A stretch of DNA of 64,000 nucleotides from Hyphomonadaceae bacterium (lineage in GTDB: Bacteria > Pseudomonadota > Alphaproteobacteria > Caulobacterales > Aquidulcibacteraceae). Positions within the stretch are counted from its first letter, which is position 1. Each line of letters begins with the position of its first letter. The notes under the pieces are model-generated. The model was not told the DNA's origin, searched no databases, and saw only the letters and a program-made list of their open reading frames with translations. Below are positions 10,043 to 41,774 of the stretch, piece after piece. The stretch covers positions 1 through 64,000 of the forward strand of contig JAHDXR010000006.1 in assembly GCA_023384105.1 (NCBI GenBank). Reading direction: 5' to 3'. The position numbers and the translations under genes were made by a program.

Positions 10043-10321
<279 letters not shown>

Positions 10322-10322
10322 G

Positions 10323-10721
10323 ATGAGCAAACCGAAGGCTCCTCCGAAGCAGGCCTCCAACGAAGCGCGCGCCGTGCTGCGCACGCTCCGCATCAGCCCG
10401 CAAAAGCTCAATCTGGTCGCTCAGTCGATCCGCGGCCTCTCCGCCGAGAAGGCGGTGAACGAGTTGCGCTTCAGCCAGAAGCGCATCGCCAAGGACGTGC
10501 TGAAGTGCCTGAAATCGGCGATCGACAACGCCGAGAACAACCACGGCCTCGATGTCGACGGCCTCGTGGTGGCTCAGGCGCATGTCGGCAAGAACATCAC
10601 CATGAAGCGCATGCACACCCGCGCCCGCGGCCGTGGCGTCCGCATCGAGAAGATGTTCTCCCAAATCACCATCGTGCTTCGTGACACGACGAAGCAGCCC
10701 GAAACCGCTGAGGCCGCGTAA
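10323..10721 (+). CDS. rplV: 50S ribosomal protein L22
   Basis: A 132-aa L22 (uL22), whose long hairpin lines the exit tunnel and is a site of macrolide resistance changes. [20 protein letters not shown] opens the domain, and the tunnel hairpin [17 protein letters not shown] is intact. It ends with a short non-conserved tail ([13 protein letters not shown]). Its stop shares a base with the rpsC start (TAATG). Confidence 0.97.
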
Positions 10722-11530
10722 TGGGTCAAAAAGTCAATCCGATCGGTCTGCGCCTCGGCGTCAACCGCACCTGGGACTCGCGCTGGTACGCCAACACGCG
10801 CGACTTCTCGCGGCTGCTGCACGAGGACATCAAGATCCGTAAGTTCGTGCGCGAAAAGCTGAAGGCCGCCGGCGTCTCGAAGATCATCATCGAGCGTCCG
10901 CTGAAGAAGTGCCGCGTCACCATCTTTACGGCCAAGCCCGGCGTCGTCATCGGCAAGAAGGGCACCGACATCGAGAAGCTCCGCAAGGACCTCGCCAAGA
11001 TGGCCCCGGGCGCCGAGGTGCACCTGAACCTTGTCGAAGTCCGCAAGCCGGAAACGGACGCGAACCTGGTCGCGGAAGGCGTGGCCCAGCAGCTGGAGCG
11101 CCGCGTTGCGTTCCGCCGCGCCATGAAGCGGGCGATGCAGTCGGCCATGCGCCTTGGCGCGCAAGGCATCCGCATCAACGTGTCGGGCCGCCTGGGCGGC
11201 GCCGAAATCGCGCGCATGGAATGGTACCGCGAAGGCCGCGTGCCGCTGCACACGCTGCGCGCCGACGTCGATTACGGCTTCGCCGAAGCCGACACCGCCT
11301 ACGGCAAGATCGGCGTGAAGGTGTGGATATTCAAAGGCGAGATCCTCGAACACGACCCGATGGCGCAAGACAAGCGCTCGCTGGAGACCGGCGAGAGCCG
11401 CGAGCGGCGCGACCGCGACGACCGCGGCCCGCCGCGCGCGCGCGACGACCGCCCGCCGTCCGGCGACCGTCCGCGCCGCGGCCGCCGTCCGCCGCGCGGC
11501 GGCGAAGAAGCTTCGGATTCGGAAGGCTAA
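10721..11530 (+). CDS. rpsC: 30S ribosomal protein S3 with long Arg/Gly-rich tail
   Basis: A 269-aa S3 (uS3), an mRNA-entry-channel protein with helicase activity. The N-terminal KH type II domain carries the GxxG-type loop ([14 protein letters not shown]), and the C-terminal domain includes [31 protein letters not shown]. From about residue 219 the protein continues for roughly 50 residues of low-complexity Arg/Asp/Pro/Gly (for example [19 protein letters not shown], then [10 protein letters not shown]). This tail is absent from E. coli S3 (233 aa) and is probably disordered. Confidence 0.97.
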
Positions 11531-36734: not shown

Positions 36735-37205
<471 letters not shown>

Positions 37206-37257
37206 AACCTAGAATCCTGGGGAGCCGGCGCGGGTTCGTCCAGGGGCGGGCTTTCGA

Positions 37258-37665
37258 TTACACCACCGTTTCGCGGTCGCCGTAGAGCTTGGCCAAATGC
37301 GCCATCAGGCTTTTGGCGCCGGCGCTGATCTGGGCGTCCGTGAACTTGGCGCGCAATTGCCGCGCCGCGTCGGCGAGCCCCCTCGGTCGGAGCGCCAGCT
37401 TGCGCCGGTGCTTCTTGGCGATGTGCTCGATCAGCAGGTCGGCCTTCTCCTGCGACGGCGCCATCAGCGGCTTCAACGTCTGCTCCAGTTCACGCACCAG
37501 CGGATCGCCCTTGCGCTTGGCGGCTTTCTTCGCCGGCGCGATGGCGGCGAGCAGGGCGCGGTCGTCGTTCTGGCGAATGGCGGCGAACAGCGCCTTCAGC
37601 TCCGCCCGCGAGCGGTTGCGGGCGAGCGCGCGCAGCGCCTTGGCTTGAGCGGGCGCCAGCTTCAT
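37258..37665 (-). CDS. small basic helical protein, partner gene of the TIR-ParA fusion
   Basis: A 135-aa protein rich in Lys, Arg and Ala, predicted all-helical. RNRSRAELKALFAAIRQNDDRALLAAI is an amphipathic stretch, a Lys-rich patch (APAKKAAKRKGDP) follows, then HIAKKHRRKLALRPRGLADAARQLRAK. I recognise no family. The start codon overlaps the stop of the upstream ParA fusion (ATGA), so the two are co-translated. ParA-type ATPases are commonly followed by a small basic partner (ParB, McdB or PpfA-like adaptor) that binds DNA or cargo and stimulates the ATPase; that is the inferred role here. Confidence 0.7.
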   Translation of the reverse strand: MKLAPAQAKALRALARNRSRAELKALFAAIRQNDDRALLAAIAPAKKAAKRKGDPLVRELEQTLKPLMAPSQEKADLLIEHIAKKHRRKLALRPRGLADAARQLRAKFTDAQISAGAKSLMAHLAKLYGDRETVV

Positions 37666-38939
37666 TGCCCGGCCCTGCGCAGGATCGCCGCGGCCGCCTG
37701 CGTCAGCGCTTCCTTGGCGGGACGCCCGCCGACCCGCATCATCGCCGTGACGTTGATCGGGTTGGCGGCGAGGCGGTCGCTGGGCGCTGATTTCAGCACC
37801 GCGGAGTACGGCACCTCGTCGGCCAGCAGCGCCGTGCTGAAAAAGGGCGCGCCGCTGATCTCGTCGCGGGTCAGCGCGTCGGCGTCGCCGGTTTCGCCGG
37901 ATCGGGTGCGGTCGTTCACGCCGTTAAGCAGCACCGAGAACTCGCTCGGCCGCAAGGCTCTTCCCCTGACTTCGCGCACCACCTGTTCGAGCATGTTCAG
38001 TCCGGTGAGCGAGTACTTTTCCGGCCGCACCGGCGCGACGATGTGGTCGGCGGTCGTGATCGCGAGCCGGGTGAGGAAAGTGGCGCAAGGATTGGAGTCG
38101 ATGACTACGGCGTCCGAACGCGCCCGCAGCGCCGTCACCAGCGCCCGGAAGCGGGTGAAGGCCTCGGCCTTGTCGCGGTCGGAGCGGGTGTCCAGCGTGA
38201 ACTCGAACAGCCGCTCGTCGCCGGCGATAAGCTCGAAGTTCGGCTGTTTGCCGTCGCCGCGCCGGGCGCGATTGAGCGGTACGGCGACGCCGGCGATGTC
38301 GCTTATCGGCACGCTCGCTTCGCCGTGCGGGTTGAGGATGCCGTAGATCGTGTGGTTACGGTCGCGGATGCGGTTCCGCTCGCCCGGCGAGAGAAAGTAC
38401 TGCGTGAGATTGTGCTGCGGATCGAGGTCGATGAAGCTGATCGAGCGCTTGTCCGCGAGGTGGGCGGCGGCGAACAGATTGGCCGCCAGCACCGTCTTGC
38501 CGACGCCGCCCTTGATGTTCAGCATGGCGATCACGCGGCCGCGCCCGTTGGCGGCGCGCGCCCGGTCCGCGATCTGGGCGAGGACTTCCGAACGCGCTCC
38601 GCCCTGGAAGTCGACGGCCGAGGCGGTGTCCAGTGTGGCGTGAATCCATGAGTCCGCCGGCAATGCGCCCGCGAGCACGACGATGACCGGCCGGCCGTTG
38701 TTCAGCGCCGCCGCCACCTCGCGCTGCAGCCATGTGCTTTGCTCGGCCGCCGGCGAGGCGATCACGATCACGACTTGCGTCCCGCCGATCGTCTGCACCA
38801 GCGCCGCGAGCTTTTCCTGCGTGCGCAGCTCCGGCGCCGAACGGGTGACGCTCCAGCCGTTGCGTTCGAGTTCTGCGCCAATGGAGAGCGCTGCTTCCTC
38901 GTCGGCTGGTTCGAAGGCGATGTACGCCGCAATCGCCAT
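37662..38939 (-). CDS. TIR-domain-ParA/MinD-type ATPase fusion protein
   Basis: A 425-aa protein of two domains. Residues about 3-112 are TIR-like: AAYIAFEPADEEAALSIGAE opens strand A, and QVVIVIASPAAEQSTWLQRE holds the WxxxE segment with Glu74 at the position of the catalytic Glu of TIR NADases, followed by NNGRPVIVVL. Residues about 133-425 are a ParA-type ATPase: deviant Walker A KGGVGKT (143-149, with the signature Lys143), switch DLDPQHNLTQYF (171 on), Walker B-like DAVVIDSNP, and PVRPEKYSLTGLNMLEQVV. The protein is followed with ATGA overlap by a small basic gene and is divergent from an MgtC-like gene. A positioning or defence/sensing role is inference. Confidence 0.8.
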   Translation of the reverse strand: MAIAAYIAFEPADEEAALSIGAELERNGWSVTRSAPELRTQEKLAALVQTIGGTQVVIVIASPAAEQSTWLQREVAAALNNGRPVIVVLAGALPADSWIHATLDTASAVDFQGGARSEVLAQIADRARAANGRGRVIAMLNIKGGVGKTVLAANLFAAAHLADKRSISFIDLDPQHNLTQYFLSPGERNRIRDRNHTIYGILNPHGEASVPISDIAGVAVPLNRARRGDGKQPNFELIAGDERLFEFTLDTRSDRDKAEAFTRFRALVTALRARSDAVVIDSNPCATFLTRLAITTADHIVAPVRPEKYSLTGLNMLEQVVREVRGRALRPSEFSVLLNGVNDRTRSGETGDADALTRDEISGAPFFSTALLADEVPYSAVLKSAPSDRLAANPINVTAMMRVGGRPAKEALTQAAAAILRRAGQ

Positions 38940-38962
38940 GAATTGTTCACCCCTTCCGGGGG

Positions 38963-38992
38963 AACCTAGTCGGGAGGGTTAACGCTTGGCAA
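38963..38992 (-). promoter_or_regulatory. candidate promoter of the TIR-ParA operon
   Basis: Minus strand TTGCCA, 18-bp spacer, TAGGTT in the 83-bp divergent gap before the fusion gene. An imperfect GTTCACCCC-TTCC-GGGGGAAC palindrome (38945-38965) lies between it and the start codon. Confidence 0.35.
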
Positions 38993-39022
38993 TGCTCGGG
39001 CCTCGCCCCAGAGGAGCGGTCC

Positions 39023-40354
39023 GTGGCCGTGTCGGCCTGGAGTTTGCAGATTGGCCGAGACATGCCTGATCCGATTCTGCTGGAGATGGTTCAGCGCCTG
39101 ACGGTGGCGCTGGGCGTCGGCTTTCTCGTCGGCGTCGAGCGCGGCTGGAAGCACCGCGACGCGCCGGAGGGATCGCGCGCCGCGGGCTTGCGCACGCACG
39201 CCGTCATCGGTCTGCTGGGCGGCGTCTGCGGCGCGATGCTGCCCTATGTCGGGCCGGTCGGCTTCGCCGCCTTGGCGCTCTCGTTCGCCGCCGCTTTCAT
39301 CACGTTCAAGGTGATGGAGAGCCTGCGCGACCAGGATCTCTCCGTCACCGGCGCCATCGCCGGCCTTTTGGTGTTCGCGCTCGGCGCCTACGCCATGTGG
39401 GGCGATCTCCGGATCGTCGCCGCCGCCGGGGTGGCGCTGGTCGCCCTGCTGGCGTTCAAGGAGGCGCTGCACGCCTGGCTCGACAAGCTCACCTGGAAGG
39501 AGCTTCGCTCGGCGCTGCTCATCCTCGCCGCCACGGCGATCGCGCTGCCGCTGCTGCCGGACCGCGCCATCGATCCGTGGGACGCGGTCAATCCGCGCGA
39601 GCTGTGGCTGCTGACCATTCTGGTCGCGGGGGCGTCCTTCGCCGGCTACGTGGCGGTGCGCGTGCTGGGCAGCGACGTCGGCATCCTGGCGGGGGCCGCG
39701 GCCGGCTCGCTGGTCTCCTCCACGGTGGTGACCGCCGAACTGGGCCGGCGCGTGCGCAAAGGGGAGTCGCACGCCATGGTCGGCGGCGCCGCGGCGGCGG
39801 TCGCGGCGGCGATCAGCGTCGGGCGGGTGATCGCGCTGCTGGCGATCACCGGGCCGCTCATCCTGCCCGAGGCCGGCCCCGCCTTGCTGGCGGCGACGCT
39901 GGCGTTCGCGGCGGCCGCGTTCGTCATGCGCTTCCTGGACCGCCACGCGGACCGCGGCGAGCCGAGCCAAGTGCGCAGCCCGCTGGACCTCGTCTCGGTG
40001 GCGCAGTTCGCGCTGTTCCTGGGCGCCGTCATCATCGTCGGCCGGATCGTGTCCGAAGAGTTCGGCCAGGCCGGTCTGCTGCCGTTCGCCGCCACCGCCG
40101 GCCTGGCCGACGTCGACGCCGTCACTCTGGCGGCCGGCAGCCTGGTGCGCGGCGGGCTGGACCCCAGCGTGGGCGCACACGCCGTGATGGTGGCGGTGGT
40201 GATGAACACGCTGGCTAAGGCGGCGATCGCCCTGGTCGCCGGCGGCTGGCGCTACGCCGGTCTTTACCTTGCGTCCGCCCTGGCGGCCATAACCATCGCC
40301 GGGCTGGTCTGGCTCTGGGCCACGCCATTTCTGGCGCCATTGTTTAGTGGATAG
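39023..40354 (+). CDS. MgtC/SapB-DUF4010 membrane protein
   Basis: A 443-aa integral membrane protein with about 12 hydrophobic segments. The N-terminal 140 residues are the MgtC/SapB domain (LTVALGVGFLVGVERGWKHRD, RTHAVIGLLGGVCGAMLPYVG); the rest is DUF4010 (ELWLLTILVAGASFAGYVAVRVLG, GLLPFAATAGLADVDAVTLA). GTG 39023 is chosen because GAGGAG lies 6 nt upstream; an ATG at 39062 is possible. Its substrate is unknown, although MgtC relatives affect magnesium stress and F-ATPase. It is divergent from the TIR-ParA operon. Confidence 0.85.
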   Translation: MAVSAWSLQIGRDMPDPILLEMVQRLTVALGVGFLVGVERGWKHRDAPEGSRAAGLRTHAVIGLLGGVCGAMLPYVGPVGFAALALSFAAAFITFKVMESLRDQDLSVTGAIAGLLVFALGAYAMWGDLRIVAAAGVALVALLAFKEALHAWLDKLTWKELRSALLILAATAIALPLLPDRAIDPWDAVNPRELWLLTILVAGASFAGYVAVRVLGSDVGILAGAAAGSLVSSTVVTAELGRRVRKGESHAMVGGAAAAVAAAISVGRVIALLAITGPLILPEAGPALLAATLAFAAAAFVMRFLDRHADRGEPSQVRSPLDLVSVAQFALFLGAVIIVGRIVSEEFGQAGLLPFAATAGLADVDAVTLAAGSLVRGGLDPSVGAHAVMVAVVMNTLAKAAIALVAGGWRYAGLYLASALAAITIAGLVWLWATPFLAPLFSG

Positions 40355-40394: not shown

Positions 40395-41774
40395 ATGCGA
40401 GAGAAATGGACCCCCGCGAGCTGGCGCGCCAAACCCGCCAAGCACATCCCCACGGATTATCCCGACCCGGACGCGCTCGTGCGCGTCGAGCATCAGCTGC
40501 GCACCTATCCTCCGCTCGTGTTTGCGGGCGAGGCGCGCCACCTCAAGGCTCAGCTGGCCGACGTGGCCGCCGGCAAGGCTTTCCTGCTGCAAGGCGGCGA
40601 CTGCGCCGAGAGCTTCAAGGAATTCCACCCCGACAACATCCGCGACACCTTCCGCACGCTGATGGCGATGAGCGTCGTGCTGACGTTCGCCGCCTCGCGC
40701 CCGGTGGTGAAGATCGGCCGTCTCGCCGGCCAGTTCGGCAAGCCGCGCTCGGAGCCGATCGAAACCGTGGACGGCGTCACGCTGCCGTCCTATCGCGGCG
40801 ACAACATCAACGGCATCGAGTTCACGCCCGAGTCGCGCATTCCCGATCCGCAGCGTCTGCTCAAGGCGTACTCGCAATCGGCCTCGACGCTGAACCTGAT
40901 CCGCGCGTTCGCCAACGGCGGCTACGCCGACCTGCATAACGTGCATCGCTGGATGGTCGGCTTCGTCGCCGACAGCCCGCAAGGCAAACGCTACCGCGAG
41001 ATCGCCGACCGCATCTCCGAAGCGATCGACTTCATGCAGGCTTGCGGCATCACGCCCGACAGCGTGCCGCAGATGAAGCAGGTGGACGTCTACACCAGCC
41101 ACGAAGCGCTTCTCCTCGGCTACGAAGAGGCGATGACGCGGATCGATTCCACGACCGGCGACTGGTACGACACCAGCGCCCACTTCGTCTGGATCGGCGA
41201 CCGCACGCGCCAGCCCGACGGCGCGCATGTCGAGTTCGCCCGCGGCATCAAGAACCCGATCGGCATCAAGTGCGGCCCCTCGCTCGATCCCGACGAGCTT
41301 TTGCGCCTGATCGACATCCTCAACCCGGCCAACGAGCCGGGCCGGCTCACGCTCATCGCCCGCTTCGGCGCCGATAAGGTCGAGGCCGGTTTGCCGAAGC
41401 TTGCGCGCGCGGTCACGCGCGAAGGCCGCGCCGTGGTGTGGTCGTGCGATCCGATGCACGGCAACACGCTGAAGACCGACAGCGGCTTCAAGACCCGTCC
41501 GTTCGACCGCATCCTGGCCGAGGTGCGCGCTTTTACAGACATCCTGCCTTCCGAAGGCGCTTATCCCGGCGGCGTCCACGTCGAGATGACGGGCCAGCAG
41601 GTGACGGAGTGCCTGGGCGGCGCCGCGGCGCTGACGGAAGAGGATCTTTCCAGCCGCTATCACACCCATTGCGACCCGCGCCTCAACGGCCAGCAGGCGC
41701 TCGATCTCGCGTTCCTGATCGCCGAGCAGCTGCGCGGCGCGCGCACCAACGGGCGCAAGGCGCAAGCGGGCTGA
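40395..41774 (+). CDS. class II 3-deoxy-7-phosphoheptulonate (DAHP) synthase
   Basis: A 459-aa enzyme joining phosphoenolpyruvate and erythrose-4-phosphate, the first step of the shikimate pathway. The class II (plant/AroF_II type) signature is visible: [11 protein letters not shown] near residue 75, [55 protein letters not shown], and [11 protein letters not shown] with the metal-binding His. Metal ligands Cys, His, Glu and Asp all appear present. Length is normal. gshB follows after 34 bp. Confidence 0.96.

Follow-up and report, generated by a model that had tools for sequence, protein, structure and literature searches.

A TIR domain fused to a complete ParA-type ATPase and coupled to a small basic partner at an old chromosomal locus of Caulobacterales

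Bacterial TIR domains are usually read as immune NADases, and in TadZ/CpaE, a ParA/MinD-like ATPase carries an additional domain at its N-terminus. The two-domain chain of 3fkq is built likewise. The ParA/MinD positioning systems ParAB, McdAB, and PomXYZ combine a deviant Walker A ATPase of the Soj/ParA fold with a small basic partner encoded alongside it; in PMC10241942, charged N-termini are reported for ParA/MinD partners, which act through them. The gene pair described in this article resembles these systems, yet it adds an N-terminal TIR domain, and its partner is of no known family. Compared with TadZ/CpaE, the N-terminal domain is a TIR domain by sequence and not a receiver. With Thoeris ThsB and other TIR effectors, the pair has the TIR domain in common, including the position of a glutamate that is kept in the genus of the window. 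However, this glutamate is not kept in the wider fusion family, PADLOC is negative for the window pair, and a Pfam scan of six window proteins (the pair and its surroundings) returned no ThsA-like neighbor.

The PADLOC defence candidate PDC-M28B (438 positions) likewise has a ParA-like ATPase behind an N-terminal stretch and is of similar length. It differs by a KGGVGR motif and by an N-terminal part without TIR motifs visible by eye, on which grounds membership in the same family was rejected; it has no match in the window genome at 1e-30. Next to PDC-M28B itself, four of the six loci L186-L191 have another long frame on the same strand, in which a GxxGxGKS-like motif can be made out by eye. 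MinD/ParA-like domains inside conflict systems are reported as predicted inactive in the available part of PMC7159879, whereas the motifs of the window ATPase are complete. The portion of PMC11271474 at hand mentions a TIR gene and, separately, ParA-like genes. The available portions of PMC7075850, PMC13174449, PMC6963756, PMC6690266, PMC7159879, and PMC11271474 do not describe a TIR-ParA fusion, and open-licence full texts contain, among the matches listed, no described TIR fusion with ParA, AAA_31, or MinD. This agrees with the initial annotation, which knew of no described system that combines the two in one chain next to a small basic partner.

The window is the whole stretch of DNA that was analyzed—64,000 nucleotides of a Hyphomonadaceae bacterium (contig JAHDXR010000006.1, positions 1 to 64,000). 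Herein, the fusion is encoded by a single open frame that runs from an ATG start at 38939 down to 37662. Its parts are as follows.

37662..38939, minus strand: TIR-ParA fusion gene, 425 aa, stop included in the coordinates (open reading frame, Pfam, relatives, AlphaFold2 model)
38595..38939, minus strand: TIR domain, residues 1-115 (TIR_2 and SARM1 matches)
38718..38720, minus strand: codon of Glu74 (HMM alignment to the Glu of SARM1 WVHKE; variation among relatives)
37665..38543, minus strand: ParA/MinD-type ATPase domain, residues 133-425 (AAA_31; Foldseek to Soj/ParA)
38493..38513, minus strand: deviant Walker A motif KGGVGKT, residues 143-149, with signature Lys143 (conservation)
38097..38099, minus strand: codon of Asp281 in the Walker B-like strand VVIDSNP (the same in 25/25 sequences)

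The fusion is confirmed to consist of an N-terminal TIR domain and a complete ParA-type ATPase in one chain, and the motifs that had been named beforehand—YIAF, VVIVIASP, and WLQREV with Glu74 in the TIR part and KGGVGKT with Lys143 in the ATPase—are all present. In Pfam, TIR_2 matches residues 6-114 with an E value of 1.8e-10 and 41.8 bits (cut-off 28), ThsB_TIR matches with 27.9 bits (cut-off 21.2), and AAA_31 matches residues 135-327 with 1e-22 and 81.4 bits. A profile of fusion residues 1-115, built from 16 sequences, finds TIR structures of SARM1 at 2.4e-8. In the HMM alignment, WVHKE of SARM1 lies on WLQRE of the fusion, and hence Glu74 takes the position of the aligned SARM1 glutamate, which we take to be the catalytic residue of SARM1. 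Box 1 of the TIR part is atypical in the window genus, reading AYLAF and not FISY. Both TIR_2 and AAA_31 match all 25 members of the first-family alignment A2 at E 0.01 or better; the first family is that of the window genus. Alignments A2 and A3 comprise 24 of 28 loci and the window, with L042, L054, L062, and L066 left out.

The AlphaFold2 model of the fusion has a mean pLDDT of 85.9, with 86-96 by blocks over residues 1-140, and its TIR part shows the beta-alpha alternation of a flavodoxin-like fold. The structural check that had been proposed for residues 1-115 thus gives a confident model with alternating strands and helices. With the whole chain as query, Soj and ParA chains rank first in Foldseek (best E 4.9e-12, TMt 0.80), and all but one of the 50 matches listed are named ParA/MinD-type or other ATPases. 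Since no structural TIR match is found among them, the assignment of the TIR fold rests on the sequence profiles together with the strand-helix order of the model. The one exception is 3fkq, titled NtrC-like, which ranks 12th over 406 columns. This match, the flavodoxin-like fold that receiver and TIR domains share, and a CpaE_hom_Actino match that covers residues 72-175 but is weak (28 bits versus a cut-off of 154) would fit a degenerate receiver in a polar localizer of the TadZ/CpaE kind. We consider this the least probable of all readings, given that TIR_2 matches 25/25 first-family and 64/64 second-family members (E 0.01 or better), that neither a receiver nor a TadZ family appears among the families listed, and that SARM1 is matched at 2.4e-8.

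For the ATPase, the motifs are complete: the deviant Walker A motif with its signature lysine, an aspartate after the second strand, and the Walker B-like aspartate. Its best matches in sequence are Soj/ParA, and phrog_164, a ParA-like partition protein, matches the fusion at 1e-32. The residues Lys143, Lys148, Asp171, Asp173, and Asp281 are identical in 25/25 first-family sequences, and the equivalent residues are invariant in 64/64 sequences of the second family of the order in which the fusion occurs. The earlier claim of an intact ParA ATPase is thereby borne out.

The fusion is followed by a small gene and preceded by a conserved element.

37258..37665, minus strand: partner gene, 135 aa, basic, modeled all-helical; its start overlaps the fusion stop (ATGA, 37662-37665)
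38963..38993, minus strand: conserved promoter-like element (ATTGCCAAG...GACTAGGTT), 23 nt before the start codon (congeneric alignment)

The small basic neighbor of the initial annotation is thus found as described, with a pI of 11.0. Over the first 70 residues of the partner, the net charge is at least +8 in 20 of 25 sequences. Its model is all-helical (pLDDT 81.4, pTM 0.51) and matches no solved fold (Foldseek best E 2.8), and no family cut-off is reached in Pfam, NCBIfam, PADLOC, or PHROGs. Frames were obtained for 29 of 30 first-family loci, one of which ends at a contig edge, and a small gene lies behind the fusion in all 28 whose contig continues. Herein, the small gene starts within a 4-nt overlap in 25 loci, within a longer overlap in one, and 4 nt behind the stop in two. 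The partner profile matches 29/60 first-family genomes, that is, the 30 with the fusion minus one cut by a contig end, and 0/105 genomes of the second family. The partner therefore appears dispensable in some lineages. Upstream of the fusion, 18 of the 31 bases of the promoter-like element are invariant columns in an alignment of 11 congeneric upstream stretches. This conservation suggests, at the level of sequence, that the fusion and partner genes form an operon with its own promoter; a scan for the sigma-70 consensus upstream of the fusion found no site.

A ParA gene with a small, basic, coupled neighbor, together with the Soj/ParA and phrog_164 matches, is also what would be expected of a partition system from a plasmid or integrative element, in which the TIR domain replaces the usual ParA N-terminal domain and the partner is a ParB-like centromere binder. 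We regard this as quite unlikely. The partner matches no DNA-binding family and does not qualify as a ParB-type partner, no repeat array of note is seen in the two short stretches 38880-39080 and 37150-37300, and the locus is old and chromosomal. For this locus, a plasmid gene was rejected, with 0 of 793 matching plasmid records covering 80% of the fusion query, and likewise a phage gene, with 0 of 13 matching phage records doing so. With two accessory relatives as queries, 0/594 and 0/1836 plasmid records reached 80% cover. One viral contig matches the fusion over ATPase residues 135-314 only.

Among the 60 first-family genomes, the fusion is found in 23 of 30 congeners (one copy in pieces and one cut by a contig end) and in seven genomes of other genera, one at only 32% identity. 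The intact congeneric copies are 71-86% identical. Named records are metagenome-assembled genomes labeled Hyphomonadaceae, Caulobacteraceae, Caulobacterales, Terricaulis sp., or only Alphaproteobacteria or Proteobacteria. In the second family, the fusion profile matches 66 of 105 genomes, and the N-terminal domain is matched by TIR_2 in 64/64 sequences (E 0.01 or better); for the sole member displayed in full, the score is 22.1 bits and thus under the cut-off of 28. A survey across genomes, as had been proposed, thus finds the same fusion in congeners, other genera, and a second family. An assembly chimera or a frameshift, the concern raised beforehand, is ruled out, as the copies in congeners agree with the fusion in length and architecture. 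In a sample of 385 genomes of the class, with at most four candidates scored per genome, the full-length matches are one member each of the two known families; eight other genomes past 1e-22 show matches to the ATPase only, to the TIR domain only, or to the two on separate contigs. In L062 (genome G054), the fusion and several adjoining genes are in pieces, which looks like sequencing error and not like decay of the fusion. The window genome itself holds 12 TIR_2 matches including the fusion, 11 of them over the cut-off, and some are clustered on contigs 6, 11, and 17.

On the other side of the fusion, two genes are encoded on the opposite strand.

39023..40354, plus strand: MgtC/DUF4010 gene, divergent neighbor, not thought to be part of the module (Pfam, neighbor clustering)
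40395..41774, plus strand: class II DAHP synthase gene, syntenic anchor in both families (Pfam, neighbor clustering)

The TIR-ParA locus is an old chromosomal locus. By neighbor clustering, the DAHP synthase gene lies near the fusion, on the opposite strand, in all 24 first-family loci L039-L062, where it either adjoins the fusion or is separated from it by the MgtC gene. It is also near in L064, with two genes between, and is not nearby in L063, L065, and L066, of which L063 is the first-family relative with 32% identity. All 16 second-family loci with long flanks (drawn from 41 second-family matches) have the DAHP synthase gene as the upstream neighbor, and the downstream neighbor belongs to one cluster, read by eye as glutathione reductase, in 12 of these 16. 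Both anchors are present in L055 of the first family and in L064, which ties the arrangements of the two families together. Separately, L055 holds a second ParA-like gene (10173-11042, 289 aa, no room for a TIR domain) two genes behind the partner on the other strand. Seven congeners lack the fusion. The DAHP synthase gene was located in six of them, and in its surroundings tblastn detected no trace of either the fusion or the partner (6/6 loci); one of the six, G048, has a distant relative (L110) elsewhere. Hence, the module is dispensable and has been gained or lost cleanly. The conserved neighborhood could point to a nucleoid-bound regulator of the adjoining DAHP synthase or MgtC genes, a reading that we hold to be very unlikely: the MgtC gene lies between the fusion and the DAHP synthase gene in most congeneric loci, the latter gene is present where the module is absent, and a common place can be mere vertical descent.

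The conservation of Glu74 differs from that of the ATPase motifs. It is a glutamate in 22/22 congeneric sequences, the window included. In the seven other first-family sequences, the position holds Ala once, His once, Asp three times, and Glu twice, so that the glutamate is lost in five of seven; the first-family count covers 29 of 30 loci, the broken copy L037 having given no frame. In the second family, the position is replaced in 62 of 64 sequences (Asp in 43, Gln in 19, Glu in two), counted over 64 of 66 matched genomes with G684 and G704 left out. The two sequences with Glu are the divergent L126 and L173, whose identity to the first row of the alignment is 39% and 24%. L064, which has Glu, is placed with the second family (SH-aLRT 99), and the unrooted ATPase tree (45 rows) requires at least three changes between Glu and not-Glu. 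Over 16 congeneric sequences, the TIR domain has a median dN/dS of 0.21, the ATPase one of 0.095, and the partner one of 0.23 (Nei-Gojobori; 100, 119, and 107 of 120 pairs used, respectively, the pairs not being independent). All three parts are under constraint, and the ATPase is the most constrained.

More divergent TIR-ParA genes occur in L065 and L109-L112; a small gene (130-147 aa) lies behind every one of them, and the glutamate is kept in 5/5. L109 lies near a predicted pPIWI-associating nuclease, L112 adjoins a TIR gene as well as an integrase, and L110 and L111 are located between a gene read by eye as dxs and genes read as flagellar. PADLOC TIR-effector models match the TIR parts of L109, L110, and L112 with best E values of 2.4e-9, 3.8e-8, and 1.5e-9. 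Two TIR-like proteins are encoded near such genes, one at L110:1093-2175, which is under the TIR_2 cut-off with 23.0 bits, and one at L112:3792-4712, which also matches the topoisomerase C-terminal repeat. These accessory relatives look like the stock from which the chromosomal copy could have been captured. The unrooted ATPase tree, which has long branches, does not resolve the genes of the two families as sister groups apart from the accessory relatives, and it neither shows nor refutes such a capture.

The relatives bear on the question whether the protein is an anti-phage or stress effector, in which ATPase and partner would sense a trigger and cluster the TIR domains, leading to NAD cleavage or cyclic ADP-ribose signaling. 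Glu74 is kept throughout the window genus, the TIR domain is SARM1-like with ThsB_TIR over its cut-off, and the accessory relatives keep the glutamate, two of them in defence-like or integrase contexts and with PADLOC matches down to the value given for L112. The patchy presence of the fusion in the genus and the dozen TIR_2 matches in the window genome are in line with this as well. Nonetheless, we judge an effector to be unlikely, though less so than the partition, regulator, and receiver readings: the locus is fixed, syntenic, and chromosomal in two families, the glutamate is replaced in most second-family and most noncongeneric first-family sequences, Box 1 is atypical, and the best PADLOC match of the window protein has only E 0.011, with no match for the partner and no model for the pair.

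The reading that we tentatively prefer is a chromosomal two-gene positioning system of the ParA type, in which the TIR domain serves mainly as a self-association or adaptor module and the locus is probably a domesticated accessory module. By analogy with ParA/MinD systems, the ATPase would most likely bind nucleoid DNA as an ATP-sandwich dimer. The small basic partner would stimulate hydrolysis, trigger release, and link the ATPase to a cargo or site. The TIR domain would most likely cluster the ATPase or contact the cargo by self-association or as an adaptor, and NAD cleavage would not be its main conserved job. This role of the TIR domain is favored because the locus is old and syntenic, the glutamate is often replaced, and the ATPase motifs remain unchanged. 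Of the two options left by the initial annotation, the TIR domain as an association module thus stands as the favored one, and coupling of positioning to NAD cleavage is less favored in view of the many replacements. A purely structural TIR domain in the window genus is, however, hard to reconcile with the invariance of Glu74 there, and the sequences make a coupling to NAD cleavage possible in this genus and in the accessory relatives, where the glutamate is kept. The second family weakens the analogy to ParA/MinD systems, as the partner profile has no match in it; the task of the partner would there have to fall to a different protein or to the ATPase by itself.

As to its origin, the TIR-ParA-partner accessory module was probably captured beside the DAHP synthase gene and then domesticated. 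The fuller version, namely that an immune-type module captured at one chromosomal site of the Caulobacterales became a system of spatial organization with the TIR domain as its clustering or cargo domain, is held more doubtfully than the positioning role itself. If true, a TIR domain would have been put to work in intracellular positioning—an immune domain domesticated into a positioning machine. The Glu, Asp, Gln, Ala, and His forms provide a natural series to tell TIR catalysis from TIR scaffolding, and an undescribed ATPase-partner pair is added to the orphan ParA systems.
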